Assembly (NCBI GenBank): GCA_009377845.1
Contig: WHTE01000004.1
Location: 1 to 51,924, forward strand
DNA length: 51,924 nt
Direction of reading: 5' to 3'
DNA from: Nitrospirales bacterium
GTDB taxonomy: Bacteria > Nitrospirota > Nitrospiria > Nitrospirales > UBA8639
The notes under the pieces were generated by a model. That model ran no database searches and had not been told where the DNA came from. It worked only from the letters and a program-made list of their open reading frames with translations. The position numbers were made by a program, and so were the translations under genes. Position 1 is the stretch's first letter. The number at the start of each line of letters is the position of its first letter. Positions 2,300-21,975 of this stretch are shown here, in pieces.

Positions 2300-2323
2300 A
2301 GTTTTTTCCCTTCCTCTGAAGAT

Positions 2324-3415: not shown

Positions 3416-3511
3416 GTACCCCCCCTTAGAGTTTTCGCCAGATCCGGTAGTGGGAATGCACATCCATGCTCCGCATGATTGGAGTTGTGGATACTTCTCA
3501 TGCTTGAGTGA

Positions 3512-4902: not shown

Positions 4903-4946
4903 GATAGCCAATATAGAAATCTCAGTTAAAAGATCGCGGTGGATTT

Positions 4947-7304: not shown

Positions 7305-7399
7305 CCCTTCTCTGACCTCCAAAACTATTTTTTCGGGGATTGCCCGGATGCCTTTGGGTCTAGATCGGTGACGTGGCATTGGACTTTTGGGGAAATGTC

Positions 7400-7440: not shown

Positions 7441-8670
7441 TTAATTGATGATTGCCTCTGGTTGTACATGAGAGGGGTGAGTGTGGTTTTGAGTTGCATC
7501 AGGCAATTTTGAAAATGCAGAAATAATTTTTTTAATTTGCTTCTCGGTATGAGCTGCGCTGACACTGCATCGAAGGAGACATTCGCCGTTTGGGGTGGCA
7601 GGGGGAATCATGAGGTTGACATAAATGCCATTTTCCAAGAGTTCTTGCCACATGGCCAGGGCCAGTTCTTTGGTGGGGATCATGGCGGCAATAATAGGCC
7701 CGACCTCTGCCCCAAGCGAATACCCACTCTGCAGTAATCCATCATACAATTGATGAGCATTGGTCCAAAGCCGGCGACGAAGTTCTGGACGATCCTGAAT
7801 AATTCGAATGGCCGCTTTTGTTGTAGCGACAACAGATGGACAAGGGGACGCCGTAAAAATATATGGACGACTGGTGTATCGTATGAATTCGAATTCGGGA
7901 TGAAAACTTATTCCGAACCCTCCAGTCGAGCCTAAACTTTTGCTGAATGTCCCGACGATGCAATCGACGTCTTGTTCAACGCCCGTTTCTTCGGCCAAGC
8001 CACGGCCATGTTGTCCGAGTACGCCCAACGAATGCGCTTCATCAACGACCAGGGTCGCTCCATATTTCTTCTTGACTTCCACGATCTCGGCCAGCGGGGC
8101 TCGATCTCCCAGCATGCTATAAATGCCTTCGACGACAATTAAGGTCCGGTGACTTCGGTCACCCAATCGACGGAGCCGTTTTTCCAAATCGGCCACGTCA
8201 TTATGTTTAAACCGGATGATTTCTGCGCCTCCCAGCCGGCATCCGTCATAAATGCTGGCATGGGAATCCCCATCCATTAAAATAGTATCCCCAGGTCCTG
8301 CAAGAGAAGAAAGAACCCCAAGGTTGGCTTGGTAGCCCGTGGAAAAGACGATCGCATAGGGGGCTCCATAGAAATCAGCAATGGCTTTCTCTAGCTCCCT
8401 ATGGCTTAAAAATGATCCATTAGCCATCCTCGATCCTGTTGTTCCGGTCCCTTCTTGGGCAAGGGCCTCCTGACCGGCCTTGATGCAGTCGGGGTGAAAG
8501 GTCAAGCCTAAGTAGTTGTTTGTGCCAACGAGGATGGTTGTGCGGCCGTTCATGATGGCTTCTGTTGGAGAAAGAATATTTTCGACCGTCACGTGAAACG
8601 GGTTCACCCCACTTTTCAGTAAATTGTTTCGGGCTTTTTGAATAGGAAGAAATTTGTCAAATAGGGACAT
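7441..8670 (-). CDS. spt: Serine palmitoyltransferase-type alpha-oxoamine synthase
   Basis: A 409-residue fold-type I PLP enzyme that condenses an acyl thioester with an amino acid and releases CO2. PLP residues are visible: DSHASIYDG at 135-143, DEAHSLGVLG at 210-219 and GTFSKSLGSTGGF around Lys244, the Schiff-base lysine. The family includes BioF, KBL and HemA. DSHASIYDG, the FSKSLGSTGG context and above all the neighbours favour serine palmitoyltransferase, making 3-ketosphinganine in the cytoplasm. It starts 2 nt after the acyl carrier protein gene. A reductase and an acyl-AMP ligase lie further upstream on the same strand, the set known from the Caulobacter ceramide locus. No bio genes are nearby, which argues against 8-amino-7-oxononanoate synthase. 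Confidence 0.8.
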   Translation of the reverse strand: MSLFDKFLPIQKARNNLLKSGVNPFHVTVENILSPTEAIMNGRTTILVGTNNYLGLTFHPDCIKAGQEALAQEGTGTTGSRMANGSFLSHRELEKAIADFYGAPYAIVFSTGYQANLGVLSSLAGPGDTILMDGDSHASIYDGCRLGGAEIIRFKHNDVADLEKRLRRLGDRSHRTLIVVEGIYSMLGDRAPLAEIVEVKKKYGATLVVDEAHSLGVLGQHGRGLAEETGVEQDVDCIVGTFSKSLGSTGGFGISFHPEFEFIRYTSRPYIFTASPCPSVVATTKAAIRIIQDRPELRRRLWTNAHQLYDGLLQSGYSLGAEVGPIIAAMIPTKELALAMWQELLENGIYVNLMIPPATPNGECLLRCSVSAAHTEKQIKKIISAFSKLPDATQNHTHPSHVQPEAIIN

Positions 8671-8672
8671 GA

Positions 8673-8918
8673 TTACCCTTTCAGTAACTTTTCAATCTCT
8701 TGGCCTAAGTCCTGGACGGTTCGGATATTGGGAAGATTATTCAGTGGGATGGAAATATCAAATTGATCTTCGATTTTTAATAGGACCTGCATGACTTGTA
8801 GAGAATCCAATCCCAGCTCAGCGACCAGTTCGGTTTTTTCTTTTAACCGAAAGCCTTCTTTGGTAAAAGGCTTTAGTGTGTCGAACAGCTGAGGGAGGAT
8901 GTCAGAATAACTCATCAT
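8673..8918 (-). CDS. Dedicated acyl carrier protein
   Basis: An 81-residue acidic carrier protein. The phosphopantetheine attachment motif is ELGLDSLQVMQ with Ser39; four helices are predicted from the pattern, and the length is normal for ACP. It lies between the CerR-like reductase and the serine palmitoyltransferase-type enzyme, only 2 nt from the latter, so the two are almost certainly co-translated. In the Caulobacter ceramide locus a special ACP is charged by an acyl-ACP synthetase and feeds serine palmitoyltransferase; the gene order here repeats that arrangement. Two ATG codons in tandem (8918 and 8915) make the exact start uncertain by one residue. Confidence 0.88.
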   Translation of the reverse strand: MMSYSDILPQLFDTLKPFTKEGFRLKEKTELVAELGLDSLQVMQVLLKIEDQFDISIPLNNLPNIRTVQDLGQEIEKLLKG

Positions 8919-8974
8919 TATAATAATGATAATAACATAGCCCCTCTTCTGGGGAGAAAGAGACCAGACGTTTT

Positions 8975-9919
8975 CTAATTTCTTTGAGATGGCGTGAGCG
9001 TATCCGATGTAAACAAGCGGCGCAAGCCTTCCTTGAGGGAAATTTGAGGCGTCCAGCCTAGTGTCTGTGTGGCGTGAGAGTTGTCACAGACCCAATTGGG
9101 GTGAAGGAGCTCAGCAACCTTCCCACCGGTGAAAAGCGGAACATACCCAAATAGGCGCGAAAAGGTTTCATTGCTTTTTCCGAGTATTTTTAACATGACC
9201 GGTGGAATGCGCAAGCAAAAGTGTAGATGAGGATTCGAAAGACGAAAGACATCGCCCCAGGAATATCCCCCTGGGAATCCATCGTCGATCTCAAATGTAT
9301 GAAAGGGCGGCCCTCCGTTTTTCAGCCAAAGAAGAACGGCTTGTGCGAGGTCGTCGACATGAATCAAGGAAAATTTGGCATGAGAAGGGCCGAGTTGTAA
9401 CCCAACCCCTTTGCGTAACAATTTAAAAAGAGGAAGAAGGGTGCGGTCCTTGGGCCCATACACTGCTGGTGGACGAAAAATACCCCATTCAATTGCGCCG
9501 GCCTCACGTGCTAACACCGATTCACCTTCATGTTTGCTCCACGCGTAAGGCGAAAGGGATGGCTCACGAGCGGCTAGAGAAGACAGAAGAACAAACCGTG
9601 GAGGAGGCGATTGAGCAAGACAGGTTTTGATAATATTGGATACCCCGATCACATTGGTCTTATGAAAATCCTCTCGACTAACCCCTCGAATGGCAGCGGC
9701 GCAGTGGATGACCCCAATGCAGTCTCTGACCAGAGGTAGAAGGCTGGCAGGGCTTTCTAAGTTGCCTTGGACGGTTTCAATCCCAAGATCTTGCAGCTCT
9801 TGAGCTTGGCGTGGAGATCGAACCAGGCCACGTACATGCCACCCGGCTTGGCTGAAATGTCGAGCAATGACCCCACCAATGAAACCGGAAGCCCCGGTCA
9901 GGGCAACGGTAGTGTGCAT
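8975..9919 (-). CDS. NAD-dependent epimerase/reductase, CerR-like
   Basis: A 314-residue extended short-chain dehydrogenase. The NAD(P)-binding motif TGASGFIG is at 8-15, and the catalytic set is visible as LLSSLAARE (Ser113/Ser114) and YAWSK (Tyr125, Lys129). By family alone it could be a sugar-nucleotide epimerase. Its position between acyl-AMP ligase, ACP and serine palmitoyltransferase-type genes points to CerR, the epimerase-like enzyme of Caulobacter that reduces the 3-keto group of 3-ketosphinganine or ketoceramide. It lies 38 nt after the ligase gene and 56 nt before the ACP gene in one run of minus-strand genes. The fold is firm; the ceramide role is inference from context. Confidence 0.75.
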   Translation of the reverse strand: MHTTVALTGASGFIGGVIARHFSQAGWHVRGLVRSPRQAQELQDLGIETVQGNLESPASLLPLVRDCIGVIHCAAAIRGVSREDFHKTNVIGVSNIIKTCLAQSPPPRFVLLSSLAAREPSLSPYAWSKHEGESVLAREAGAIEWGIFRPPAVYGPKDRTLLPLFKLLRKGVGLQLGPSHAKFSLIHVDDLAQAVLLWLKNGGPPFHTFEIDDGFPGGYSWGDVFRLSNPHLHFCLRIPPVMLKILGKSNETFSRLFGYVPLFTGGKVAELLHPNWVCDNSHATQTLGWTPQISLKEGLRRLFTSDTLTPSQRN

Positions 9920-9957
9920 AGACAGTGGAGGAAGCTTGAGGAAAGGTGGCGTTGGTC

Positions 9958-11724
9958 TTATGCAGACCTAGCTGCTGTGGACAACATTGGAACTAACTCT
10001 TCCCATTGTATACGGGCCAGAAAGTCAGATTTGGCACGAGAGCGGGATAATTTTCCAGATGACGTACGAGGGAGAGTTCTGGGTGGAATAAGTTCAATGT
10101 AGCAAGGAATGGACAACTCTTTGTGTACCAAGGATCGTAAGCGGTTGACCAAGTCCTCCCGCTTTTGGATGTCCGTCTCGCGACATTGAACGATCATAAT
10201 GGCTGTTTCATTGCCATCGGGCCCGGAAACGGAAAAAGCGGATGAATCGCCAGGCCGAACTTCCGGTTGTTGCTCTGCCAAGAATTCCAAGTCCTGAGGC
10301 CAGATATTTCGTCCATTAATGATAATCATATCTTTGGACCGACCAATAATCACCAGGCTGTTTTCGATCCAATAGCCAATGTCGCCCGTATTGAGCCAGC
10401 CATCGGCGGAAAGTACCTCCATGGTCAAGGCCGGGTCTTCAAAATAACCAGACATAATGCTTGCACCGCGTACAAAAATAGTCCCACTTTCTCGTTCTTC
10501 AACAACATCTCCACTCATATTTCGTATTTGCACTTCATAACCAGGTAGGGGAACCCCGCAATTCACAAATTTGCTACATCGAGCCTGGTCGTCGTCAGAA
10601 AAAGATGGGACGAAAGGAATCGCCTGTCTGTTATTGGAGAGCCTGTCTCCATCAACACGATCGACTTCGAGTCCTTTATGAAGGGGGGCAAAACTGATAG
10701 CCAAAGAACATTCAGCCATCCCATAGCATGCCAGGAAGGCTTCAGACTTAAACCCGCTCGTGTTCAGGGTTTGGGCAAACCGCGAGAGGCTATCGGCACG
10801 AATCGTTTCTGCCCCAACCCCGGCTATGCGCCAGGAACTGAGATCATAGTGTTCATTGGAATCTTCGCCAAGTCTTCGCACGCAAAGCTCATATCCAAAG
10901 GAAGGGCTGAATGAAATGGTCGCCTGACTCTTTGTCATCAAATTAAGCCATTGGCGAGGACGCATGGCAAAATCGCGCGTGCTCAAATAATCAACGGAGA
11001 GTTGTGAGGCTATAGGGCCAAGGACGAATCCGACCAGTCCCATATCATGGTAGAAGGGAAGCCATGAGACGCAACGGTCACCTGGCCTGACCTGTAAGCC
11101 ATGCTGGATGATCCCGGATAGATTGGTCATCACTGCCGACTGAGTAACCTCGACCCCTCTAGGCCAACGTGTGCTGCCAGAGGTGTATTGAATATAGGCT
11201 AATTCATGTGGCTCCAGTGGTCTGAGTGGGCCATCAGCTTCTTTCAGGGAGGCAAAGGTTTCAGGACCTCCAATGAGAGACAGGTTCAGGCCAGCCGATG
11301 CTTCTTCTAAAAATGGCAAAAAGCCTTCAGGGGACATTGTGATAGAGGCTTGGCAGTTTTGGATCAGACGTCTCAGCTGGGTGACATACGCTTGATGTCC
11401 ACCCAAATGCAAAGAAATGGGGAGGGGAACTGGAATCAGGCCTGCATACTGACAGGCGAAGAAAAATCGAATGAAATCAGGGGTAGTATCGGCGATTAAG
11501 CCAACACGCGCCCCACGGGGAAGGCATAACCCATTCAGTCTTCGGGCCAAATTTTGAGCATGTTTTTGCAGATCAGCATAGGGAACCACATGAGTAATTT
11601 TTCCTCTTCCAGAGTAAAAATTACACCCTGTTTCCCCTGAAGCCGCATAATCAAGGGCCTCTGAAAGTGTGGAGAAGTTCCCATGTCTGAGTCTGAGCTG
11701 GTGATTAGTTGGAGTGGCGTTCAT
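9958..11724 (-). CDS. Fatty-acyl-AMP ligase / acyl-ACP synthetase
   Basis: A 588-residue ANL-superfamily adenylating enzyme. The P-loop signature YTSGSTRWPRG is at 180-190; the usual second lysine-rich part reads RWPRG. LPFYHDMGLVG, the acyl-AMP-ligase version of motif A4, follows, then WLNTGDIGYW, GRSKDMIIINGRNIWPQDLE, and SSGKLSRSR with the C-terminal catalytic lysine near 561. These features match FAAL-type ligases that load fatty acids onto carrier proteins rather than onto CoA. It is the first gene of the minus-strand unit ligase, reductase, ACP, palmitoyltransferase, and probably charges the ACP at 8673-8918. The upstream 218 bp are AT-rich and may hold its own promoter. Confidence 0.82.
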   Translation of the reverse strand: MNATPTNHQLRLRHGNFSTLSEALDYAASGETGCNFYSGRGKITHVVPYADLQKHAQNLARRLNGLCLPRGARVGLIADTTPDFIRFFFACQYAGLIPVPLPISLHLGGHQAYVTQLRRLIQNCQASITMSPEGFLPFLEEASAGLNLSLIGGPETFASLKEADGPLRPLEPHELAYIQYTSGSTRWPRGVEVTQSAVMTNLSGIIQHGLQVRPGDRCVSWLPFYHDMGLVGFVLGPIASQLSVDYLSTRDFAMRPRQWLNLMTKSQATISFSPSFGYELCVRRLGEDSNEHYDLSSWRIAGVGAETIRADSLSRFAQTLNTSGFKSEAFLACYGMAECSLAISFAPLHKGLEVDRVDGDRLSNNRQAIPFVPSFSDDDQARCSKFVNCGVPLPGYEVQIRNMSGDVVEERESGTIFVRGASIMSGYFEDPALTMEVLSADGWLNTGDIGYWIENSLVIIGRSKDMIIINGRNIWPQDLEFLAEQQPEVRPGDSSAFSVSGPDGNETAIMIVQCRETDIQKREDLVNRLRSLVHKELSIPCYIELIPPRTLPRTSSGKLSRSRAKSDFLARIQWEELVPMLSTAARSA

Positions 11725-11792
11725 TCTGTCTCAGGATTTTTGGCAGTCTTGTTCCCAATAAGTCGCTATAAAGCATTTAAAGTCAGTAAGCA

Positions 11793-11832
11793 ATTATAAT
11801 GCCATTATATTTACTCAAGAAATGATCAAGAA
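11793..11832 (-). promoter_or_regulatory. Possible promoter/operator of the ligase gene
   Basis: On the minus strand two TATAAT boxes occur (11804-11809 and 11793-11798). They sit in a perfect 7-bp inverted repeat, TATAATG-c-CATTATA, at 11795-11809. TTCTTG hexamers lie 17 bp upstream of each (11816-11821 and 11827-11832), but they match the -35 consensus poorly. The palindrome over the -10 boxes could bind a repressor. This is the only promoter-like feature in the 218-bp gap before the ligase gene. Confidence 0.4.
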
Positions 11833-11942
11833 CTAAGGAAAAATTGATGGCATTATTCCATATTCAATTTAGCTTGTAGCAAAAAAACATCAATTGGAGT
11901 CTATTTAGCAACAGCCAATGTGCTTATTCCTAAGTAATATAA

Positions 11943-12386
11943 CTAGAGTTTGGTTTTATGAACCCAGCTTTTTTTGAGGTGAGTCAAAATTTTCTGGATC
12001 ATGTCTTGGGACGTTTCATTGGGATTTTTAAGGAGGGGTGGGCCAGGCCATCCATGGTCAAAAAATTGCTGATGGCAGAAAGTGTGTTCCGTTCCATAGC
12101 GAGGGATCACATGGAAATGGACATCAGGATCGACCATCATCAGCATGAGATAATTTATTTTTTCATATGAAAAGGCTTCTGATACACTCGCCTCGATTTC
12201 CCGAATAGCACAAGGGAGTTCCGCAAAGGCCTCGGGGCTTATCTGGGAAAACGCGCTGGCAACATCTTGGCAAATTAACACAAGGGACCCGAGCGTCACT
12301 TGCTGTGGTCGCAAGACCACGACCCATTTTTGATATTCTTTGATGAGGGTGGCAGGGTATCCGAACTTTTGCAAGGTAGCATTCAT
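11943..12386 (-). CDS. HIT-family protein
   Basis: A 147-residue histidine-triad-fold protein. The characteristic DPDVHFHVIPRYG segment carries His90 and His92, and upstream lies the family's hydrophobic strand pattern (GSLVLICQD). HIT proteins hydrolyse or transfer nucleoside monophosphates, for example AMP from adenylated compounds. It sits upstream of the acyl-AMP ligase on the same strand, separated by 218 bp, and is divergent from the hydroxylase operon. A tempting idea is that it clears stray acyl-adenylates made by the ligase; that is inference only. ATG at 12386; the ribosome binding site AGGAGA is visible a few bases upstream. Confidence 0.78.
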   Translation of the reverse strand: MNATLQKFGYPATLIKEYQKWVVVLRPQQVTLGSLVLICQDVASAFSQISPEAFAELPCAIREIEASVSEAFSYEKINYLMLMMVDPDVHFHVIPRYGTEHTFCHQQFFDHGWPGPPLLKNPNETSQDMIQKILTHLKKSWVHKTKL

Positions 12387-12434
12387 GGTCTCTCCTTTTG
12401 TTCGCTAACTTTTGTTCAATAAGGATGGGTAACC

Positions 12435-12463
12435 TTGAGGCGAGTGTTAAAGGTTTCTATAAT
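12435..12463 (+). promoter_or_regulatory. Sigma70-type promoter of the hydroxylase / ceramide synthase operon
   Basis: TTGAGG at 12435-12440 is followed by a 17-bp spacer and a perfect TATAAT at 12458-12463. The expected transcription start is near 12470, leaving a leader of about 70 nt before the ATG at 12540. It is the best promoter match in the lipid region and lies in the gap between the divergent HIT gene and the hydroxylase gene. Confidence 0.65.
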
Positions 12464-12539
12464 GAACCGACAGGCTATCAATGAGTGAGCACCTACAGAC
12501 GGTAGCTTGCATCCAATTGAACATGGGGTAGGAGGCTGC

Positions 12540-13274
12540 ATGTTAAAGAGTCAGTGGTACCAACAGAAGTATCATCTTGATCGAATGTCCTTTCGGGATC
12601 TCGTTTGGGCGTATGTGTCTTATCCCGGCATACAGGTTTATTTCTTGTTGTTCATGGGAAGTAGTATTTTGGGGATGATGAGCAACCGCAATGATCCGGC
12701 TTCTCCAATGCTCCTGGGATTGAGCGTCCTGGGGACTCTCATCGCCTATCCCTTTGTGGAATATGGGGTCCATCGATTTATTTTGCATGGCCGGTATCTG
12801 TATCGATCACCTTGGACGGCAGCCCTGTGGAAACGAATTCATTACGATCATCATCAGGATCCGAATGACTTGCGGGTCTTATTTGGGGCGTTATCCACTA
12901 CCCTTCCAACCATTGTCATTGCCACATTACCGATTGGTATGAGCATAGCTGGTTGGTCAGGGGGAGCTCTTTCGTTTGCTACTGGACTGGCGTGCTTTAT
13001 GGTGTATGAATTATGTCATTGTATGCAACATTTGCGAGTGGCTCCCCAAAATAAATTTTTACGACGGATCAAGCGCCATCATTTGCTGCATCATTTTCAT
13101 AATGAACAGGGAAACTTTGGTATCACGAGTATGTTCTGTGATCGGATATTTGGCAGTTTGTATGGGAGTTCCGAGGATGTGCCTTTCAGTCAAACCGTTT
13201 CCAATTTGGGCTACGCAAACCAGGAACGATCCCACTATCCCTGGGTGGCCCAATTATCCGAACAGAAGCACTAA
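12540..13274 (+). CDS. Fatty-acid hydroxylase / sterol-desaturase family membrane enzyme
   Basis: A 244-residue integral membrane di-iron enzyme. The histidine boxes are all visible: HRFILH at 78-83, HYDHH at 101-105, HCMQH at 160-164 and HHLLHHFH at 180-187, separated by hydrophobic segments near 30-48, 58-75, 115-140 and 143-160. The family inserts hydroxyl groups or double bonds in sterols, fatty acids, carotenoids and ceramides. The start at 12540 follows AGGAGG with a short 4-nt spacer; a TTG at 12507 would add 11 residues. It heads the plus-strand unit that includes the ceramide-synthase-like GNAT protein, so hydroxylation of the long-chain base or the N-acyl chain is the natural suggestion. 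That role is inference from context. Confidence 0.8.
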   Translation: MLKSQWYQQKYHLDRMSFRDLVWAYVSYPGIQVYFLLFMGSSILGMMSNRNDPASPMLLGLSVLGTLIAYPFVEYGVHRFILHGRYLYRSPWTAALWKRIHYDHHQDPNDLRVLFGALSTTLPTIVIATLPIGMSIAGWSGGALSFATGLACFMVYELCHCMQHLRVAPQNKFLRRIKRHHLLHHFHNEQGNFGITSMFCDRIFGSLYGSSEDVPFSQTVSNLGYANQERSHYPWVAQLSEQKH

Positions 13275-13373
13275 GAGACAAATGGTTGTCGAGAAAGGTG
13301 ACTTTCATTTCGCCTTACTAGTCCGCACTCCCAGTGCTCAATGGGTGTGTGAGGATGGCCGGGGAAAGGCATT

Positions 13374-14498
13374 TTGATTCGGGTTGAACCGGTCAGTGAC
13401 CGTGCCACCCTCAAAGAATTTATTCGTCTTCCCTGGAAGCTGTACCACTCAGATCCATATTGGATTCCCCCTTTACTCGTTGAACGGCTTCATACCTTTT
13501 CCCCGAAGAATCCCTATTTTCAGCATGCCCGGTGGCAATGCTGGATTGCCTATCGAGGGCATGAACCAGTTGGTCGGATCAGTGCCCAAATCGATGATTT
13601 GCATTTGAGCCGGTACAAGGATCAGACCGGGTTTTTTGGGTTACTTGAAGCGGAAGATGAGGCCAGTGTCTTTCACGCCCTATTTCAGACTGCGGAAGAG
13701 TGGCTTCAGGCTCAAGGGATGACGAACGTTCGAGGGCCATTTAATTTGTCGATCAATCAAGAATGTGGTCTGTTGGTCGATGGATTTGATTCTCCACCCA
13801 TGATTATGATGGGACACGCCAGGCCTTACTACTCACAGTGGGTTGAACGAAATGCCTATAAAAAGGCTCAAGACCTTCTTGCTTATCGGATTGGAATTCA
13901 TTTTACCTTTCCCCCGGGGGTGTCCTTGTTTCTCAAAAAAGCTAAAACCTCTATGCGCATTCGTCCATTGCGGCGGAAGCACCTCAAGGAGGATTTGGCT
14001 ATTATCCAGGAAATTTACGAAGAGGCATGGTCGGATAATTGGGGATTTCTTCCGTTTAGCAGTGCAGAATTTTCCGAGATCGGACAACAGCTCAAACTAT
14101 TGGTACAAGATGATTTTGTGCAGATCGCTGAAATAGACGGGGAGCCCACCGCGATGTTGGTGGCCTTTCCCAATATTCATGAGGTCATCCAAGATCTGAA
14201 TGGGCGTCTTTTTCCATGGGGGTGGCTCAAGATCTTATGGCGGCTGAAAGTTTTCTATCCCCAATCGGGTCGGGTCGCCTTAATGGGAGTTCGCAAACGA
14301 TTCCAATCCAGTCCGATGGGTGCGGCGATGGCCTATGGCTTGATTGAGGCTGTGAGGGAGGCAGGACTTCGTAAAAATATTCAGCAGGTCGAAATGTCCT
14401 GGATTTTGGAAGATAATAAACGCATGCGTCACATACTTGAATCCCTCGGAGCCGAACCATATAAGACGTATCGAATCTATCAGAAAAATCTCCAATGA
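13374..14498 (+). CDS. GNAT-fold N-acyltransferase, candidate bacterial ceramide synthase
   Basis: A 374-residue protein of the large GNAT-like family marked by the N-terminal segment LPWKLYHSDPYWIPPL, then VGRISAQIDD, FFGLLEAEDE and GPFNLSINQECGLLVDGFD. Bacterial ceramide synthase (bCerS) of Caulobacter is a GNAT-family protein required for N-acylation of the long-chain base, and this gene lies beside a serine palmitoyltransferase set. That makes it the best candidate for that step here. The start is a TTG at 13374 preceded by GGGGAAAGG; no ATG is available in frame because a stop lies at 13350. Its stop overlaps the next gene as ATGA. The GNAT assignment is good; the ceramide role is inference, since the family also occurs outside sphingolipid loci. 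Confidence 0.7.
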   Translation: MIRVEPVSDRATLKEFIRLPWKLYHSDPYWIPPLLVERLHTFSPKNPYFQHARWQCWIAYRGHEPVGRISAQIDDLHLSRYKDQTGFFGLLEAEDEASVFHALFQTAEEWLQAQGMTNVRGPFNLSINQECGLLVDGFDSPPMIMMGHARPYYSQWVERNAYKKAQDLLAYRIGIHFTFPPGVSLFLKKAKTSMRIRPLRRKHLKEDLAIIQEIYEEAWSDNWGFLPFSSAEFSEIGQQLKLLVQDDFVQIAEIDGEPTAMLVAFPNIHEVIQDLNGRLFPWGWLKILWRLKVFYPQSGRVALMGVRKRFQSSPMGAAMAYGLIEAVREAGLRKNIQQVEMSWILEDNKRMRHILESLGAEPYKTYRIYQKNLQ

Positions 14499-15334
14499 TT
14501 ACAGGCGTCTTATCCGTGAGCCCGTATGGTCTTGATCGCCAACCTGTCACGGCTCTGGTGTTGGCTGGGGCCAGAACTGATCGAGATCCGGTTGCCCGTA
14601 TGGCAGGGGTATCGAATAAGGTATTGGCAAATGTGGGTGGTGAACCCATGATATCCCGTGTATTACAGACTTTAGAAAAGGCCCACACGGTGGGGAAGAG
14701 AATTTTATGCGGGCCTGCGTGGGAAACGGTTCAAGGCAATCCTTTCCTTGGGACGTTGATTGAGTCAGGAAATGTTCAATGGGTCGAACCTCAACAAGGC
14801 CCGAGTTTAAGCGTTGGGAGGTTTTTGCACGAGCATCCCCAGGAATTTCCCATTCTGATTACGACCGCTGATCATGCTTTATTGACTGCAGAGATGGTTG
14901 ATTATTTTCTTCGAGAGGCACAGCAAGTGAGGGCGGATGTTGCTGTGGGACTCGTGCCATATTCATTGGTCGTTGCGTCGTATCCCCAATCCAAACGAAC
15001 GGTCACTCGGTTCACGGGTGGAGGGTTTTGTGGGTGCAATTTATTTGTCCTCTTTACGCCAAAGGCCGAGCGAATGGTGGAGTTTTGGAGTCACATTGAG
15101 CGGGAACGCAAGCATCCTCTTCGCTTGATTCGGACCCTTGGGGGGCTGGTCCTGGTCCGCTATGTGCTTGGCCGGTTGTCCCTTTCAGATGCACTGGATC
15201 GGCTCGGTCGGCGTCTCGATCTTCACGTTAAAGAAATTCTGCTCCCGTTTCCTGAAGCCGCTATTGATGTGGATACTTCTGCAGACCTGGCATTGGCGGA
15301 ACAAATCTTGGCGGAACGCCGAAGAAAAGGATAA
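14495..15334 (+). CDS. MobA-like NTP transferase
   Basis: A 279-residue nucleotidyltransferase of the GT-A/MobA-like fold. The nucleotide-binding loop is VLAGARTDRDPVARMAGVSNK, a variant of LAGGxSxRMGxxK, followed by ILITTADHALLT, the equivalent of the metal-binding D-x-D region. Its ATG overlaps the stop of the GNAT gene as ATGA, so the two proteins are very likely made together. That ties it to the lipid pathway rather than to molybdopterin synthesis; no moa or mob genes are seen. It may activate a headgroup precursor as a CDP or GDP derivative, but the substrate is not evident. Confidence 0.7.
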   Translation: MITGVLSVSPYGLDRQPVTALVLAGARTDRDPVARMAGVSNKVLANVGGEPMISRVLQTLEKAHTVGKRILCGPAWETVQGNPFLGTLIESGNVQWVEPQQGPSLSVGRFLHEHPQEFPILITTADHALLTAEMVDYFLREAQQVRADVAVGLVPYSLVVASYPQSKRTVTRFTGGGFCGCNLFVLFTPKAERMVEFWSHIERERKHPLRLIRTLGGLVLVRYVLGRLSLSDALDRLGRRLDLHVKEILLPFPEAAIDVDTSADLALAEQILAERRRKG

Positions 15335-15402
15335 AAAGGCATGAAGACTGGTTGACGGTGAGAGGTTATTTCATGAGTTGGGACAGGCGTGTTCCTCGAA
15401 AA

Positions 15403-16164
15403 TCAGCCACCGTGAGAAATCGATGGAGAAGCACTGAAAGATTGATAAATTTTTAACAGACGCTCAGCCTGTTCTAAATCGGAAGGATTGTCGATCTCGG
15501 CCCAAATCAACCCCTTGATGGAAAAGGTCGACACGTGACCTTGTTGGGCTAATTCGTCAATGAGTGATAAATACCATTGCTTAAGTGCCTCCGGTTTTCG
15601 AATGCGTTGGTCCAACGTCGAACAAAATAACCGAGATCCCCGGTCTTGAAACCGAATCATGCCGATGGACTCCCCATTGACCTGCTCGATCGGGAGCGTT
15701 TTGCCGATGCGAACTAATTGTGTGCCACGTACGATTACTTTCATGTCGTCCGCATCGTAGCGGGGTTTTTCATCGGTCACCAAGGTGATCGGAGCGGAGG
15801 GTGCTTGCAGCAGACCTTCCAGAACCGCTGATTCAAATAATGTATCGCCATTAATTAACACAAAATCCTGGGTCATTTCGTTCCGGGCAACCCAACAACT
15901 TATGAGGTTATCCGCCAGCGCATAGAATGGATTATAAATAGTATGAATGGAACTTGACCCCACTCGATGAGCCAATAAGGCTTCGACTTTGTCAGCTCCA
16001 AAGCCGACGACGACGTGAATTGAATCCATCCCTAATCGGATCAACTCCTGAACTTGCCACTCTAAAATGGAATGCCCATTAATGGAAACGGTGCATTTGG
16101 GTTGGTCAGTTGTTAACGGCAGCAACCGTTTTCCTTGCCCAGCACTTAAGATCACGGCTTTCAT
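15403..16164 (-). CDS. LicC-like phospho-alcohol cytidylyltransferase
   Basis: A 253-residue NTP transferase with the signature AVILSAGQGKRLLPLTTDQPK at the N-terminus, NPFYALADNLISCW near 98-111 (typical of LicC-type phosphocholine cytidylyltransferases), and FVLINGDTLF as metal site. It would activate a phospho-alcohol with CTP. It stands alone on the minus strand, convergent with the MobA-like gene and divergent from lptF. With the CDP-alcohol phosphatidyltransferase at 18745 it could form a two-step headgroup route of the kind used for inositol phosphates and choline. The real alcohol is unknown. Confidence 0.72.
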   Translation of the reverse strand: MKAVILSAGQGKRLLPLTTDQPKCTVSINGHSILEWQVQELIRLGMDSIHVVVGFGADKVEALLAHRVGSSSIHTIYNPFYALADNLISCWVARNEMTQDFVLINGDTLFESAVLEGLLQAPSAPITLVTDEKPRYDADDMKVIVRGTQLVRIGKTLPIEQVNGESIGMIRFQDRGSRLFCSTLDQRIRKPEALKQWYLSLIDELAQQGHVSTFSIKGLIWAEIDNPSDLEQAERLLKIYQSFSASPSISHGG

Positions 16165-16223
16165 TGTTTGAAATCTCCTATCCTGGGATGCCCAATGAAT
16201 AACGTTGTGTTGAGGTTTGTCGG

Positions 16224-17282
16224 ATGTTAGTCAGATATCTCGTCCGAGAGGTACTGAAGCCATCAATTGTGATCTGTGGGCTTTTGGTGGCCTTGTTTGC
16301 CGGATATAGTTGGGTCACGTTTCTATCCAAAGCCGTCAATGCGTTGTTGCCCGTGCATATGATTCTAATGTTAATTGCCTTAAAAGTGGGAATTGCCCTT
16401 GAAGTGTTAATTCCCATTTCGTTGTATTTCGGGGTTATTTTAGGGTTTGGTCGTTTGTATGCCGATTCTGAAATGAAAGCCTTTATGGCGTGTGGTGTCA
16501 ATCCGTATCGGATCCTCCTTACGGTTTTTGCCCTTTCCTGTTTGGTGGCTGTGCTGGTCAGCATATTTTCCTTGTATCTTCGTCCCTTGGCTTATGCGCA
16601 GAGTTATCGATTAAAAGCCGAAGCAGAGGCCGGATTTCGTATCAGCAATTTGGATGCCGGACATTTTTATGAACGACGTAATGGATCCCTGGTATTTTTT
16701 GCGGAGGATATCGATCAACGCCACCAAAAATTAAGTAAGGTGTTTGTTCAAAGTGAACATGGGGATGATATACAGGTCTTTTCGGCCAAGGAAGCTCAAG
16801 AGCATATGGATCCCCAAACCGGTATCTCTATTCCGGTGCTCTTTGACGGGTTCGAATATAAACTGACAAGGGAGGGGGAGATCAAGCACATTTCTGGTTT
16901 TTCACGGCTAGCGATTTACCCTCAGGAGCTGGAAGCGGAGTATAAACGGAAAGCTGAATCCACGCAAAATTTAATGAAATCTGATTCTCGCAAGGATATC
17001 GCAGAACTTCAATGGAGGGTTTCAACCCCGTTTTCGGCTATTCTCATGGGGCTTTTAGGTGTGCCATTGAGTCGCGCTTCTCCAAGACAGGGAAAATACG
17101 CCAAAATTTTTACAGCGACGATTATCTTTTCCGTGTATTACTTTACAGGGTTGATGGTGAAAACCCTCGTTGAACAAGGAACACTCCCTATGATTCCCGG
17201 TCTTTGGTGGATTGTTCTTGCGTTAGGAACCTTACTGGCGTATTTATTGGCACCATCGCGTTTCACAAAAGTCACGTCCTAA
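16224..17282 (+). CDS. lptF: LPS export permease LptF
   Basis: A 352-residue YjgP/YjgQ-family inner-membrane protein. Transmembrane segments lie at about 10-32, 48-75, 95-120 and three more after residue 270. The periplasmic beta-jellyroll domain between them (about 130-255) receives lipopolysaccharide from the LptBFG ABC transporter. The end LGVPLSRASPRQGKYAKI is the conserved cytosolic coupling region and typical of the family. The start at 16224 follows GAGG with 8-nt spacing. It precedes lptG by 84 nt. As the first copy, and by its LptF-like N-terminus (RYLVREVLKPSIVI), it is called LptF rather than LptG. Its place inside a sphingolipid-type locus is notable. Confidence 0.88.
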   Translation: MLVRYLVREVLKPSIVICGLLVALFAGYSWVTFLSKAVNALLPVHMILMLIALKVGIALEVLIPISLYFGVILGFGRLYADSEMKAFMACGVNPYRILLTVFALSCLVAVLVSIFSLYLRPLAYAQSYRLKAEAEAGFRISNLDAGHFYERRNGSLVFFAEDIDQRHQKLSKVFVQSEHGDDIQVFSAKEAQEHMDPQTGISIPVLFDGFEYKLTREGEIKHISGFSRLAIYPQELEAEYKRKAESTQNLMKSDSRKDIAELQWRVSTPFSAILMGLLGVPLSRASPRQGKYAKIFTATIIFSVYYFTGLMVKTLVEQGTLPMIPGLWWIVLALGTLLAYLLAPSRFTKVTS

Positions 17283-17366
17283 GAGCCTTGAGCTCATTCT
17301 ACCTGAAGATTCTCAGGTTTTCTGAACAGGAACATCTAAGAGCCTTACGTAAACCACGGGTTCCTC

Positions 17367-18437
17367 ATGAAAATTCTCAATCGATATCTAGCGGTCAGTT
17401 TACTAAAAGGATATCTTCCCGTGCTGGCGATTTTTTTGGCCGTCTTCAGTCTCATCGTATTTGTTGAGGAATTGGATGAAGTGGGTAAAGGTCGCTATAC
17501 CTTTTGGAATGCCAGTGAGTTTTTGCTGCTGACCTTGCCAAGTCGATTCGTATTTTTGGCCCCGTTTGTGGCGCTGTTAGGAAGTATCATGGCCTTAGGT
17601 GGTCTTGCCAATGGCCGGGAACTCATCGCGATGCAAGCCGGTGGGATTTCTCCCTATCAAATTGCCTGGTCGGTCATGAAGGTTGGGGCATTGTTTATTT
17701 TTGTCGTGGGGTTCTTTGAAGAGGCTGTCACTCCTCCTCTGGACCAGGAGGCCTATTTAAAGCGATCGATGGCTCTGTCGGATTCAGGGGCGTATAAAGG
17801 AAAGCAGGGGTTCTGGTTTCGGGAAGGGAGGCGTTTTGTCAGAATTCATGAGATACGCTATGGAGAGGTTCCCCAGGGTATCGATATCTTTGAATTCAAT
17901 GAAGGGGGACAAATGGCTACCTACATGCATGCCCAAGAGGCGGACATTCTGAATCCTCAAAAGTGGACTCTGAAAAATATTCAAAAACAGGTTATTCATG
18001 GGTTTAGTGTATCGCGAGAGCATCTGGTGAGTCTGGAATGGAATTCTCCTCTCAAGCAAAAGGAAGTGCGGTTGTTGACACTTCCTGCTTCCTCATTGGC
18101 TCCTTCTGAACTCTTTCAATACATTGAGGTCTTGAAACGGAAAAAGCAAAATTTTCTCAGATATGAGTTAAGTTTTTGGGACAAACTTCTTATGCCCTTG
18201 AATACGGGGCTCATGATTTTAATAGCAATACCGTTTGTTTTTGGTCCGTTGCGAATGGCTACGGCGGGCAAGAGAGTATTCATTGGATCCTTAGCAGGTC
18301 TGGGATATTACTTGATGACGGAAATTTTTAAACATGTGGGAATCTTGTTCGGAGCGTCTCCTTTTTTGACAACAGCCGCTCCCTTCCTGATTTTGTCAAT
18401 TGTTACCCTTGTGTTGTGGCGGCGTTATGTATATTGA
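17367..18437 (+). CDS. lptG: LPS export permease LptG
   Basis: A 356-residue YjgQ-family permease and partner of LptF in the LptBFGC complex. It begins LNRYLAVSLLKGYLPVLAIF and has the usual six transmembrane segments around a periplasmic jellyroll (about 125-250). The GPLRMATAGKRVFIGSLAGL segment near 282-301 is the LptG version of the coupling region. The gap to lptF holds a small hairpin (ACCTGA/TCAGGT at 17301-17318) of unknown use. LptB, LptA and LptC are not in the window. The pair is complete and intact. Confidence 0.88.
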   Translation: MKILNRYLAVSLLKGYLPVLAIFLAVFSLIVFVEELDEVGKGRYTFWNASEFLLLTLPSRFVFLAPFVALLGSIMALGGLANGRELIAMQAGGISPYQIAWSVMKVGALFIFVVGFFEEAVTPPLDQEAYLKRSMALSDSGAYKGKQGFWFREGRRFVRIHEIRYGEVPQGIDIFEFNEGGQMATYMHAQEADILNPQKWTLKNIQKQVIHGFSVSREHLVSLEWNSPLKQKEVRLLTLPASSLAPSELFQYIEVLKRKKQNFLRYELSFWDKLLMPLNTGLMILIAIPFVFGPLRMATAGKRVFIGSLAGLGYYLMTEIFKHVGILFGASPFLTTAAPFLILSIVTLVLWRRYVY

Positions 18438-18744
18438 AAAAAAGGATGGAAAATGTCCTTAGGGATAATGCATGATCAAAGAAAAAATGCCCACCCGCGG
18501 GTGGCTGTCCATACGCAGTGGCCTGTACCTGATATTCATGCAGATTCCTATTGACGTGGAATAAACAGTATGGTGCACGATATCTAGGCTTGTGCCCTAT
18601 GGTTTTGGCTGAAAGAACTCCGATTGCGGGAATAGACCGGGTTCGGAGGGGGGAATAAACGGGTCTGTGTCGGTTAGTGCCTATTCGAAAATTTGATCGA
18701 CTTCATTTTTTTAATGCGCTAGGTAGACAAGGCATGAAAATTCA
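18438..18744. other. Intergenic region after lptG
   Basis: 307 bp without a supported gene. It holds a perfect 14-bp palindrome, CCACCCGCGGGTGG, at 18491-18504 without a T-run behind it, which could be a protein-binding site or a weak hairpin. A 28-codon frame starting at 18468 has no recognisable product. No convincing promoter was found for the downstream CDP-alcohol phosphatidyltransferase gene. Confidence 0.5.
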
Positions 18745-19950
18745 ATGAGTGTGTATGCCTACATCGTGAATGATCCGAATATCCGATTGTGGAATCTGAC
18801 GTCTCGTACGCGGTATCAACGGATGTTAAATCCGATGGGGGTCAAGAATTTTCTGGATAACATCAACGAACTTCCATCCAATAATTCTGTTCTCATTATT
18901 AGAGGGGATTTTTTATATGATGAGCGAGTGTTCTCATTTCTCTTGAAACACACAAATGTCGTCCTGGAAGTTCAGGCGGGAGTTGGTCTCCTGCCAATCG
19001 CGGCTCATGTTGATTCTCCTCTGGCTTCTTCAACGTGGTGTGGTATACAACAGGAATGCACACGAGAAATCACGAACCTGCAATCTGTAACCCTTAAGGA
19101 TCTTTCGATTTCTTTTTCAAACGAATTGCGAAAATCTGATCATCCCTATGTGTTCTCCATTCGGGATGATAATCGGGTGGCACTGGAAGAGCATTTATTT
19201 TCAGGATCATATAAAGGGGTTACCGATCTGGTGACAAAATTTCTTTGGCCGGTTCCAGCTCAATGGGCCACTCGGCTTTGTGCGCTTTGGGGAATTTCAC
19301 CGAATCAGGTGACATCGTTGAGCTTCATGCTTGTCATCGCAGTAGGGGTTTTGTTCGGCTATGGATTGTTGTTCTGGGGTCTTGTGCTGGGATGGGTAAT
19401 GACGTTCCTTGATACTGTTGATGGGAAATTAGCTCGAGTGACGGTGACTTCAAGCAAATGGGGAAATATTTTTGATCATGGCATTGATTTAATTCACCCA
19501 CCTCTTTGGTATTTAGCGTGGGGAGTTGGTCTCCACACATTTTCCCCTTTTCTCCCCTGGTTGACCGTGGAACTAACCGTTGGAATCATTTTCATCGGAT
19601 ATATTCTGGGGCGAATAGTTGAAGGGATTTTTCAATGGTGGTTAGGGGGCTTTGTCATCTTTTGTTGGAAACCCGTGGATTCCTATTTCAGGCTGATCAC
19701 GGCTCGGCGTAATCCGAACCTCATTTTATTAACTGGCAGCTTTCTTCTTGGACGCCCGGATTCGGGTCTGGAGGCTGTGGCGATTTGGACGGTTGGCTCC
19801 ACCATGATTCTTCTCGCCAGGCTGCTCATGGCGGTTTGGGAAAAATCCGCTATGGGTTCTCTTACCTCCTGGTTGGCTGCGGTCGATCCGGTGAATCGAA
19901 ATTCCTTGGCGGTCAGAATGTTTACAAATCCTCCTGCGACGTTAGAATAA
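18745..19950 (+). CDS. CDP-alcohol phosphatidyltransferase with N-terminal extra domain
   Basis: A 401-residue membrane protein. The C-terminal part has the complete CDP-alcohol phosphotransferase signature with Asp223, Asp226, Gly227, Ala230-Arg231, Gly240, Asp244 and Asp248, the two-metal site, inside six hydrophobic helices (about 170-380). Residues 1-165 are soluble and resemble the nucleotidyltransferase-like half of bifunctional inositol-phosphate enzymes (SVLIIRGDFLYDERVF), but I see no intact catalytic loop. The enzyme would move a phospho-group between a CDP-activated substrate and an alcohol at the inner membrane. It leads a triad with the lipid kinase and the Tam41-like gene. Similar triads accompany Caulobacter sphingolipid genes (CpgABC), which supports a ceramide-headgroup role by inference. 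Confidence 0.8.
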   Translation: MSVYAYIVNDPNIRLWNLTSRTRYQRMLNPMGVKNFLDNINELPSNNSVLIIRGDFLYDERVFSFLLKHTNVVLEVQAGVGLLPIAAHVDSPLASSTWCGIQQECTREITNLQSVTLKDLSISFSNELRKSDHPYVFSIRDDNRVALEEHLFSGSYKGVTDLVTKFLWPVPAQWATRLCALWGISPNQVTSLSFMLVIAVGVLFGYGLLFWGLVLGWVMTFLDTVDGKLARVTVTSSKWGNIFDHGIDLIHPPLWYLAWGVGLHTFSPFLPWLTVELTVGIIFIGYILGRIVEGIFQWWLGGFVIFCWKPVDSYFRLITARRNPNLILLTGSFLLGRPDSGLEAVAIWTVGSTMILLARLLMAVWEKSAMGSLTSWLAAVDPVNRNSLAVRMFTNPPATLE

Positions 19951-20053
19951 AATAATAGTCACTCAGGCCGGACTCCATTGTTGACCGAAATCTTGGACTC
20001 GGTTGAATTTCTCTTCGTCATCTTTCCAGATTCCAAACCTATGCAGGTCTGAA

Positions 20054-21025
20054 ATGCCTATAGGGATCCTCCATAATCCGCTTAGTGGGCGCAATAAACG
20101 GCAGCCTCTTCTTTTTCAAGCGGTATACGCGCGGTATCCCGAGGTGCGACATGCTGAGGTCACCACTCCCGCGGATATCATGAAAGCCCTGGAGACATTT
20201 GCCCACAACCAGGTGAATCTGGTGGTAGTGAATGGAGGAGATGGCACGATCCAGGCGACGGTGGATGCATTGTTCACCTATCGACCTTTTCCAGAGATGC
20301 CGCTCCTTGCGGTAATTCCGGCAGGAACTGCGAATATGATTGCCGGGGATGTGGGGCTGGGAAAATTTGAAGAGGCCACACTGGAACATCTTTTGTCATG
20401 GATTCAATCTTCGGTATCTGCGATAGCCTTCGTCAACAGGTCGATTCTTCGACTTCGGTTCTCCTCTAACCAGAGACCAATTCATGGGATGTTTTTTGGC
20501 GCCGGGGCTATTTATCATGGGACCCAAATGGGTCGGGAGACAAAGCAAACGATTGGCCGATTAGGGGAGTGGGGAGCCGGCCTCATTCTTGCGAAATTTT
20601 TATTAGCGTTGGCCACAGGATCGCGGAAGGGGCTTCAGCCAGTGACCGTAGGTGTGTCAACAGGAGAATCAACAACCGAGCATCATGAGTATCTGGTGTT
20701 GTTGGTCACGACATTGGAACGGTTATTTTTAGGGATGAAGCCATTTTGGGGCTCGACTTCCGGCCCGTTACGGTTTACCAGTTTGAAGGTCCCCTATCGC
20801 TATTTGTGGCGTGTGTTACCGGCTCTCCTTCGTGGAAAATCTCATCCCTTGGCCACAATCGATCATGGCTATGTGAGTGAGAATTTCTCCGAGATTCGAC
20901 TGGTCTTGAACAGCGGATTTGTGTTGGATGGGGAAGTACATTTGCCGTCTCAACCGGAAGAGCCCATCATTCTTGAGTTAGCCGGAGAACTCTCGTTTGT
21001 TCGTCTCTCCTCCGGGGCCAAATGA
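20054..21025 (+). CDS. Diacylglycerol-kinase-type lipid kinase
   Basis: A 323-residue lipid kinase of the DAGK catalytic-domain family, related to YegS and sphingosine kinases. The ATP-binding motif VVNGGDGT has GGDGT at 61-65, PAGTANMIA follows at 89-97, and the C-terminal VLDGEVHLPS holds the conserved Asp-Gly-Glu. Start: the ATG at 20054 gives the family's usual start (PIGILHNPLSGRN); the TTG at 20003 is less likely. Its stop overlaps the next gene as ATGA. It is the middle gene of a triad, between a CDP-alcohol phosphatidyltransferase and a Tam41-like cytidylyltransferase, so it may phosphorylate ceramide or diacylglycerol. In Caulobacter a homologous kinase acts on ceramide. Confidence 0.82.
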   Translation: MPIGILHNPLSGRNKRQPLLFQAVYARYPEVRHAEVTTPADIMKALETFAHNQVNLVVVNGGDGTIQATVDALFTYRPFPEMPLLAVIPAGTANMIAGDVGLGKFEEATLEHLLSWIQSSVSAIAFVNRSILRLRFSSNQRPIHGMFFGAGAIYHGTQMGRETKQTIGRLGEWGAGLILAKFLLALATGSRKGLQPVTVGVSTGESTTEHHEYLVLLVTTLERLFLGMKPFWGSTSGPLRFTSLKVPYRYLWRVLPALLRGKSHPLATIDHGYVSENFSEIRLVLNSGFVLDGEVHLPSQPEEPIILELAGELSFVRLSSGAK

Positions 21026-21975
21026 ACGTATCGCCCCCGGTTTTTGATGTAGTGGCTCAACCGAGTGGCCGGCCAATTCCAAAGGCCATTCGTGCTGTTG
21101 GAGATGCCTTGTCAAAGAAGTATGGTCCATCTGCTTTGGGAGTGTTGTTGTATGGGTCATGTTTACGGGCGGGGACCGATCATGACAGTTTGGTGGATTG
21201 TTATGTATTAGTGGACCACTATGCTTCCGTGTATCAGAAAGCTTGGCTGGCGCTGTTCAATCGCTGGTTGCCTCCGAATGTGTTTTATTGGGAAGTGCCG
21301 GTGGAGGAACGGGTGGTTCGTGTGAAATATGCCGTGCTGTCTTTGGAAGATTTTGAACGCAGCGTGTCTCCTGATTGGTTTCATTCATATTTTTGGGCAA
21401 GGTTTGCGCAACCGACGGTTCTGTTAGTGTCCTCATCCCAGACAGTACGACAGCGAATTTTGAATGGGTTGGGCATGGCGGTGCTCACCTTTCTGAGAAA
21501 ATCGCTTCCGAGGGTATCTGGCCGATTTACGGCTAGGGAACTTTGGAGTGTTGGGTTGTCACTCAGTTACGGGGCGGAATTTCGGGCGGAATCCACTGGG
21601 CGGGCGGACACCTTATGGAGAAACGATTGTGAATATTATGAGCAGCTGACTCACGCTGTCTTTTCTTCTCATTTTCCCAACGTTCAGGTGGTGCCACAAC
21701 AGGAAGGTCGTGCCTATGTGTTCGAAGAGACAGGTTGGGAACGATTCAGCAATCGTATGGGGTGGATTCTTCGTCGATGGCAGGGGAAAATTTTGTCCGT
21801 CCTTCGACTCATGAAAGGGGCTTTCACCTTTCAAGGGGGTATGGATTATCTCTTGTGGAAAATTGAACGGCATTCAGGGGTGAAAATTCAACTGACCCCG
21901 GCGCAGCGACGGCATCCAATTTTGACCGGGCTTAGAATCTTTTGGCGCTTGTACCGGCAAGGGGCCTTCCGATGA
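21022..21975 (+). CDS. Tam41-like phosphatidate-type cytidylyltransferase
   Basis: A 317-residue nucleotidyltransferase-fold protein. LLYGSCLRAGTDHDSLVDCY carries the Gly-Ser motif (45-46) and Asp59, with Asp65 after it. VKYAVLSLEDFERSV and FARPxx-like text (FWARFAQPTVLL) follow. This order of motifs resembles Tam41, the soluble CDP-diacylglycerol synthase of mitochondria, and is unlike CdsA, which is multi-spanning. Translation is coupled to the lipid kinase by an ATGA overlap. The chain kinase, cytidylyltransferase, phosphatidyltransferase gives a complete route from a neutral lipid to a CDP-lipid and to a phospho-headgroup lipid. The assignment to Tam41 is by my reading of motifs; a plain uncharacterised nucleotidyltransferase is the fallback. 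Confidence 0.65.
   Translation: MNVSPPVFDVVAQPSGRPIPKAIRAVGDALSKKYGPSALGVLLYGSCLRAGTDHDSLVDCYVLVDHYASVYQKAWLALFNRWLPPNVFYWEVPVEERVVRVKYAVLSLEDFERSVSPDWFHSYFWARFAQPTVLLVSSSQTVRQRILNGLGMAVLTFLRKSLPRVSGRFTARELWSVGLSLSYGAEFRAESTGRADTLWRNDCEYYEQLTHAVFSSHFPNVQVVPQQEGRAYVFEETGWERFSNRMGWILRRWQGKILSVLRLMKGAFTFQGGMDYLLWKIERHSGVKIQLTPAQRRHPILTGLRIFWRLYRQGAFR

Follow-up and report, generated by a model that had tools for sequence, protein, structure and literature searches.

The DNA analysed here is the stretch from position 1 to 51,924 of the forward strand of contig WHTE01000004.1, in the genome assembly GCA_009377845.1 of a Nitrospirales bacterium (UBA8639), and this whole stretch of 51,924 nucleotides is referred to as the window. 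It holds, between positions 7441 and 21975, a block of genes (Table 1) related to those with which Caulobacter crescentus makes ceramides and decorates them with an anionic head group. The first-pass annotation had described an apparently complete ceramide-synthesis gene set at 7441-14498. The six open reading frames (ORFs) of this set lie at the coordinates and on the strands that it gave, with the domains expected, and the ceramide part of the claim stood; its extent had to be revised, since the block continues to 21975 with head-group genes and an LptF/LptG pair. The genes beyond the first boundary (14495-21975) encode MobA-type and LicC-like nucleotidyltransferases, LptF, LptG, a CDP-alcohol phosphotransferase, a DAGK-family kinase and a Tam41-like protein.

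Table 1. Genes of the block, with positions in the window; percentages are identities, followed where given by coverage of the window protein.
Feature	Coordinates	Strand	Evidence
Spt, serine palmitoyltransferase	7441..8670	-	NF047599 628 bits (cut-off 500); PDB 2x8u SPT 463 bits; tree; E. coli BL21(DE3) Spt 57% over 95%
AcpR-like acyl carrier protein	8673..8918	-	PF00550; Ser39; BL21(DE3) AcpR 36% over 83%
CerR-like reductase	8975..9919	-	PF01370; BL21(DE3) counterpart (CerR) 40% over 96%; NCBIfam below cut-off only
AasR-like fatty acyl-AMP ligase	9958..11724	-	NF006624 786 bits (cut-off 600); BL21(DE3) AasR 45% over 95%
HIT-like protein	11943..12386	-	PF01230 just under cut-off; between ligase and hydroxylase; absent from first-pass annotation
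Fatty acid hydroxylase, Scs7-like, probable ceramide hydroxylase	12507..13274	+	PF04116; yeast Scs7 PDB matches
bCerS-like GNAT N-acyltransferase	13374..14498	+	YghO 48% over 99%
MobA-type nucleotidyltransferase, CC_1153-like by domain and place	14495..15334	+	PF12804; 4-base overlap with bCerS
CpgD-like cytidylyltransferase (CC_1152)	15403..16164	-	Residue mapping, 55 rows; alphaproteobacterial relatives
LptF2-like permease	16224..17282	+	PF03739; own tree group
LptG2-like permease	17367..18437	+	PF03739; own tree group
CDP-alcohol phosphotransferase, CpgA-like (CC_1159)	18745..19950	+	PF01066; conserved residues
DAGK-family lipid kinase, CpgB-like (CC_1160)	20003..21025	+	PF00781 58 bits; GGDG motif
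Tam41-like cytidylyltransferase, CpgC-like (CC_1161)	21022..21975	+	PF09139 exactly at cut-off; 4-base overlap with kinase

All five rhodobacterial-type ceramide genes (AasR, CerR, AcpR, Spt and CerS) are present, and the first four stand as aasR-cerR-acpR-spt which, as had been claimed, is the order of CC_1165-CC_1162 in Caulobacter (PMC11324152, PMC9386255). In the text of PMC9386255, aasR, epi, acpR, spt and yghO of E. coli BL21(DE3), a strain whose serine palmitoyltransferase (SPT) was tested there, are presented as counterparts of the Caulobacter genes, with YghO corresponding to CC_1154. The five BL21(DE3) proteins matched the window proteins over 83-99% of their length, and the relationship to YghO agrees with the assignment of the GNAT protein to the bacterial ceramide synthase kind. 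The Aminotran_1_2, PP-binding, Epimerase, AMP-binding and FA_hydroxylase domains all scored over their Pfam cut-offs in the ORFs of the block, the GNAT domain just under (20.1, for a cut-off of 20.7), and Ser39 of the carrier protein is kept in at least 95% of 39 rows. Among the six ORFs first described, only the synthase and the ligase exceed an NCBIfam cut-off; the carrier protein and the reductase gave matches below cut-off only, and the hydroxylase and the GNAT protein gave none.

The identity of the synthase was evaluated by scores and by phylogeny. When compared with PDB chains, the protein scored 463 bits against the SPT 2x8u and 288 against the SPT 3a2b, 203 against a cysteate acyltransferase and at most 237 against chains named KBL or BioF, and it fell below the curated cut-offs for the two latter enzymes (344.9 vs 426.45 for TIGR00858 and 288.9 vs 493 for TIGR01822). 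In a quick tree of 57 rows, from which Spt sequences under 300 residues and the broken one of locus L040 were left out, the window Spt, 33 other block Spts and 2x8u formed one group with a support of 100 in the Shimodaira-Hasegawa-like approximate likelihood ratio test (SH-aLRT). Outside this group were E. coli BioF and Kbl (both long-branched), ten alpha-oxoamine synthases of the relatives and ten Spts from other Nitrospirota classes. The scores and the tree thus rule out a BioF or KBL identity and agree with the first assignment of the synthase to the serine palmitoyltransferase type.

Next to the ceramide genes lies a probable head-group kit. According to the text of PMC11324152, ceramide diphosphoglycerate (CPG2) requires in Caulobacter six genes besides those for ceramide. 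They include the CofC-like CC_1153, another nucleotidyltransferase (CC_1152), CC_1159, which displaces CMP from a CDP-alcohol, the ceramide kinase CC_1160 and CC_1161, which resembles CDP-diacylglycerol synthases, and CC_1156/CC_1155 are given there as a second LptF/LptG pair. The block holds a protein matching by domain for five of the six head-group genes (CC_1152, CC_1153, CC_1159, CC_1160 and CC_1161), the phosphoesterase CC_1158 being the sixth, so that by domain and place a kit of the ceramide phosphoglycerate (CPG) or CPG2 type, namely the kinase, the CDP-diacylglycerol-synthase-like protein, the CMP-displacing transferase and two nucleotidyltransferases, adjoins the ceramide genes. In the CDP-alcohol phosphotransferase, D223, D226, G227, A230, R231, G240, D244 and D248 are each kept in at least 95% of 42 rows, and the same is true of G79, D80 and G81 of the GGDG motif of the lipid kinase in 30 rows.

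The most detailed comparison concerns the CpgD-like protein. The residue lists of PMC12275187 and PMC13228409 give R16, K26 and D112 as active-site residues of CpgD, and G12, N90, N110, G111, M147, K161, S170 and W201 among its contacts. Mapped by spacing onto the window protein, the former fall on R13, K23 and D107 and the latter on G9, N86, N105, G106, M141, K155, S166 and W197, each of them kept in 53-55 of 55 rows; T93 corresponds to Ser89, likewise a hydroxyl residue, in a column below 85% conservation. As a control, 4jd0, named as an inositol-phosphate cytidylyltransferase in PMC12275187, presents in the alignment C, S, D and Y at N105, M141, S166 and W197, with N86 and K155 kept. CpgD-like matches at E 1e-15 occur in 46 of the 289 genomes in the class of G343 (the alphaproteobacterial genome of locus L132), 20 of them at 45-53% identity and the others at 26-33%.

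Evidence on the step ascribed to the Tam41-like protein came from gene fusions. In seven of the 39 rows listed (L106, L107, L114, L117, L118, L125 and L130), all from Nitrosomonas or Nitrosospira, the Tam41-like match is part of an ORF of 664-669 residues and, in the four of these seven sequences that were inspected, the kinase comes first and the Tam41-like part last. The proteins are unfused in five other Nitrosomonadaceae rows (L099, L110, L113, L119 and L126). CC_1161 is described in the text of PMC11324152 as a protein that might form NDP-activated ceramide, and a CDP-ceramide step of this type gains further support from the fusion of the kinase to the Tam41-like protein.

Two genes stand between the ligase and the GNAT protein. 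The only PDB matches of the hydroxylase at E up to 1 were two entries of yeast Scs7, with ten His residues aligned, which we take to be the metal ligands. In the 46 loci with both ligase and GNAT protein, the hydroxylase was found at 40% identity or more in 15 (14 of 15 Nitrospirales) and the HIT-like gene in 22 (15 of 15 Nitrospirales); the hydroxylase is also present, at 46-50%, in four loci from the alphaproteobacterial search. Judging from its gene neighbours, the substrate of the Scs7-like enzyme is probably ceramide. The text of PMC11324152 ascribes the hydroxylation of the amide chain in Caulobacter to the unlinked DesA-family enzyme CC_0202, whereas in the window a PF04116 hydroxylase lies inside the block, so that carriers may use for a like hydroxylation an enzyme unrelated to that of Caulobacter.

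The presence of LptF and LptG within the block raises the question of lipid transport. The organism has one LptF/LptG pair in the block and another on contig C137. Across the order, NF047599 scored over its cut-off in 29 of 146 genomes and, with G252, where the Spt is spread over two frames and falls below the cut-off, 30 genomes were counted as Spt-positive. PF03739 copies number at least four in 26 of these, three in three and none in one, which is 73% complete; of the 116 genomes without Spt over the cut-off, three have four copies, two have three and the rest one or two. Extra copies (at least three) therefore track Spt, being found in 29 of 30 genomes with it vs 5 of 116 without, with a Fisher p of about 2e-24 (about 2e-21 for at least four copies) that is overstated because the genomes are related. 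In a quick tree of 51 rows, restricted to sequences of 300-520 residues, and in which three entries that are probably not LptF/LptG (L220_hAzo_2, L222_hG246_2 and L223_hG141_0) formed a separate branch, block LptF and block LptG each made one group (94 and 95) spanning Nitrospirota, Pseudomonadota, Desulfobacterota and Rokubacteria. These groups lie apart from the organism's own second pair; of the housekeeping copies, those from Pseudomonas and Azotobacter are closer to them than the Nitrospirales ones are, a placement that would be a sign of horizontal gain from a Pseudomonadota-like source. LpxC is present in the organism's own genome and in 26 of the 30 Spt-positive genomes, which suggests that lipid A is probably kept and made beside the sphingolipid and speaks against a replacement of lipopolysaccharide (LPS) by sphingolipids.

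Relatives of the GNAT protein were found in 118 of 295 Nitrospirota genomes. Only seven, including the organism's own and all of its order, have one at 57% identity or more, the remainder showing 32-43%. The block is present in all six other genomes with a GNAT relative at 57-89%, which argues that it is more than a chance assembly. One of them (L043) has the block without the hydroxylase, in another (L040, genome G252) the Spt is split over two frames (L040:15754-16981), and the stretches fetched for L042 and L044 stop short of the last two genes and the last gene, respectively. A bCerS match was obtained in 102 loci, many of them truncated at contig ends; scoring a gene as present when tblastn gave a match at E 1e-3, 17 of these loci contained 10 or more of the 12 core genes and 11 contained all 12. 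A scan of named genomes gave at least 581 confirmed places, and the best 80 include Nitrospirales metagenome-assembled genomes (UBA8639, Nitrospira sp. HKST-UBA08 and NPIRA01 among them), as well as Nitrosomonas, Nitrosospira, Pseudomonas, Azotobacter, Geobacter, Desulfobulbaceae, Rokubacteria, Nitrospinota and more; no Caulobacter sequence is among these 80. Quick, poorly resolved trees of Spt, bCerS, fatty acyl-AMP ligase and CDP-alcohol transferase (rows under 330 or 450 residues were left out of the three latter) put the Nitrospirales rows in three places, and a clear sign of transfer came from the LptF/LptG tree only.

The remaining Nitrospirota classes present a different picture. Twenty Nitrospirota stretches were compared, among them those of the six other carriers of the order and 12 from other classes; in ten of these 12 (L045-L051 and L054-L056) a CerR-Spt-bCerS trio was found, and in two bCerS alone. 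The trio, which shares three of the five ceramide proteins with the window, is a second, simpler sphingolipid locus: its Spt is 41-46% identical to that of the window and falls outside the window's tree group, and no other block gene was detected at E 1e-5 within the stretches of 17-20 kb.

Of the systems already described, that of C. crescentus (CC_1168-CC_1152, as set out in PMC11324152) is like the block in its five ceramide genes, in counterparts by domain of CC_1152, CC_1153, CC_1159, CC_1160 and CC_1161 and in LptF2/LptG2, and differs from it in having CC_1158. The E. coli BL21(DE3) locus yghO-aasR-epi-acpR-spt (PMC9386255) likewise joins the five ceramide genes to an adjoining LptF/LptG pair; however, none of the 13 neighbouring proteins compared matched the head-group genes of the window. 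In Pseudomonas asuensis, locus L123 agrees with the window in the order and orientation of 13 genes, but no hydroxylase was found in its stretch. The published set includes P. luteola, presumably a relative of P. asuensis.

Taken together, gene content, gene order, conserved residues, trees and co-occurrence make it probable, with good confidence, that the block would make and handle an anionic sphingolipid of the Caulobacter ceramide-phosphoglycerate kind; the reactions, the head group and the transport role are all inferred from these comparisons. Briefly, the ligase would load a fatty acid onto the dedicated acyl carrier protein, and Spt would condense the acyl group with serine. N-acylation by bCerS and reduction by CerR, in an order that is disputed in the literature, would then lead to ceramide, which the Scs7-like enzyme would probably hydroxylate. 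The lipid kinase would convert ceramide to ceramide-1-phosphate, and the Tam41-like enzyme would probably turn this into CDP-ceramide, while the CpgD-like enzyme would yield CDP-glycerate. The CDP-alcohol transferase would couple the CDP-activated parts with loss of CMP, and the second LptF/LptG pair would carry the lipid toward the outer membrane, alongside ordinary LPS. A bolder and more specific version, which we consider tentative and rather doubtful as a whole, is that the product is a hydroxylated ceramide (di)phosphoglycerate made via free CDP-ceramide (kinase, then Tam41-like protein), that the HIT-like protein replaces the CC_1158 step, and that synthesis, head group and dedicated LptF/LptG moved between phyla as one package.

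A number of observations weigh against these proposals. Orthology to the Caulobacter genes rests on domains, spacing and synteny, and neither CerR nor the GNAT protein exceeds an NCBIfam cut-off. The Tam41-like protein reaches its Pfam cut-off without exceeding it, and its profile matched a solved Tam41 at E 0.001, equal to another nucleotidyltransferase. A search by Pfam, confined to the ORFs of the block, gave no counterpart of the CC_1158 phosphoesterase, a gene which, according to the text of PMC11324152, six other species lack and which is dispensable. As for transport, five of the 116 Spt-negative genomes carry extra LptF/LptG copies; three of these are incomplete (64-81%), and G307 (97%) and G298 (90%) are not so explained. 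Furthermore, some carriers, such as Nitrosomonas oligotropha and Nitrosospira multiformis (L113 and L110; G346 and G347), show only the two copies of the block, which implies that the pair is not dedicated everywhere.

Of the other ways in which the block could be explained, the one that deserves most attention is that ceramide is made but the nucleotidyltransferases and the CDP-alcohol transferase serve a different head group, such as phosphoinositol or another CDP-activated polyol. Among the solved proteins most closely related to the CpgD-like one there are indeed choline-phosphate and inositol-phosphate cytidylyltransferases, and PMC12275187 describes what CpgA and CpgC catalyse as not known even in Caulobacter. 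Nevertheless, the preservation of the CpgD phosphoglycerate contacts in nearly every row, together with the four differences in the aligned 4jd0, makes such a head group unlikely. Still less probable is a synthase that takes cysteate, alanine or glycine and so leads to a sulfonolipid or a deoxy-lipid: a cysteate acyltransferase belongs to the same superfamily, but the score with 2x8u is more than twice as high, the tree places the protein in the SPT group and the accompanying genes are of the ceramide phosphoglycerate type. A sulfonolipid synthase identity was rejected on the same scores and tree. Finally, the draft state of the genome (169 contigs, contamination 4.5%) could suggest that the block is foreign to the organism and was brought in by a binning error. 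This can be given hardly any weight, and was set aside, since the same block is found in genomes of the same genus assembled in one and seven contigs, with bCerS at 88-89%, and the eight top-ranking named matches, out of the best 80 of at least 581, all bear the labels of Nitrospirota lineages.

Other genes surround the block. Immediately downstream of Spt, an 810-residue protein (4947-7379, minus strand) carries a C-terminal ELM1 domain, while its N-terminal 440 residues have no Pfam match over cut-off; it adjoins Spt in some relatives, for instance L039, L041, L063, L065 and L066, and is possibly a glycosyltransferase for glycosphingolipids. Still further downstream of the ceramide genes, and also on their strand, NeuB-family and GFO/IDH/MocA proteins (716-3463, minus strand) are perhaps encoded by surface-glycan genes. 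Between them, at 3512-4911 (minus strand), ORF4498 and ORF3512 lie in two frames and correspond to a single ORF in all six relatives that hold both, so this frameshift is private to the window and represents decay or an assembly error. With regard to the physiology of the organism, the nitrite oxidation marker TIGR03479 gave in its genome below-cut-off matches only, one of which is a fragment at a contig end.

As a kind, the pathway is known; it is an uncommon find in a phylum for which no published account was found. A literature search combining Nitrospira, Nitrospirota or nitrite oxidisers with sphingolipid or ceramide returned no title or abstract on the sphingolipids of this phylum. Stankeviciute et al. 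2022 may list it. A paper on the Black Sea (PMC11334938) counts Spt-like proteins in 38 phyla; the string 'nitrospir' is absent from its main text and from those of PMC9386255, PMC11324152 and PMC11087976, although the supplementary phylum lists of these papers may name the phylum. A first report of sphingolipid genes in the phylum is thus not claimed here.

Ceramide diphosphoglycerate was worked out in Caulobacter where, as stated in PMC13228409, it can substitute for LPS. The kit so far worked out in Caulobacter and other proteobacteria looks to be present here nearly whole, in one block, in Nitrospirales. Its apparent occurrence in this order, as well as in loci with labels such as Desulfobulbaceae and Rokubacteria, means that the lipid may be far wider spread than the organisms in which its chemistry has been studied. 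Two aspects of the pathway are now open to comparison: the CC_1161-type step, for which the fusion with the kinase suggests CDP-ceramide as the product, and the possible service of LptF/LptG to sphingolipids, toward which copy numbers and trees point. If the one-package proposal were true, some Nitrospirales would have gained a second acidic outer-membrane lipid beside LPS.

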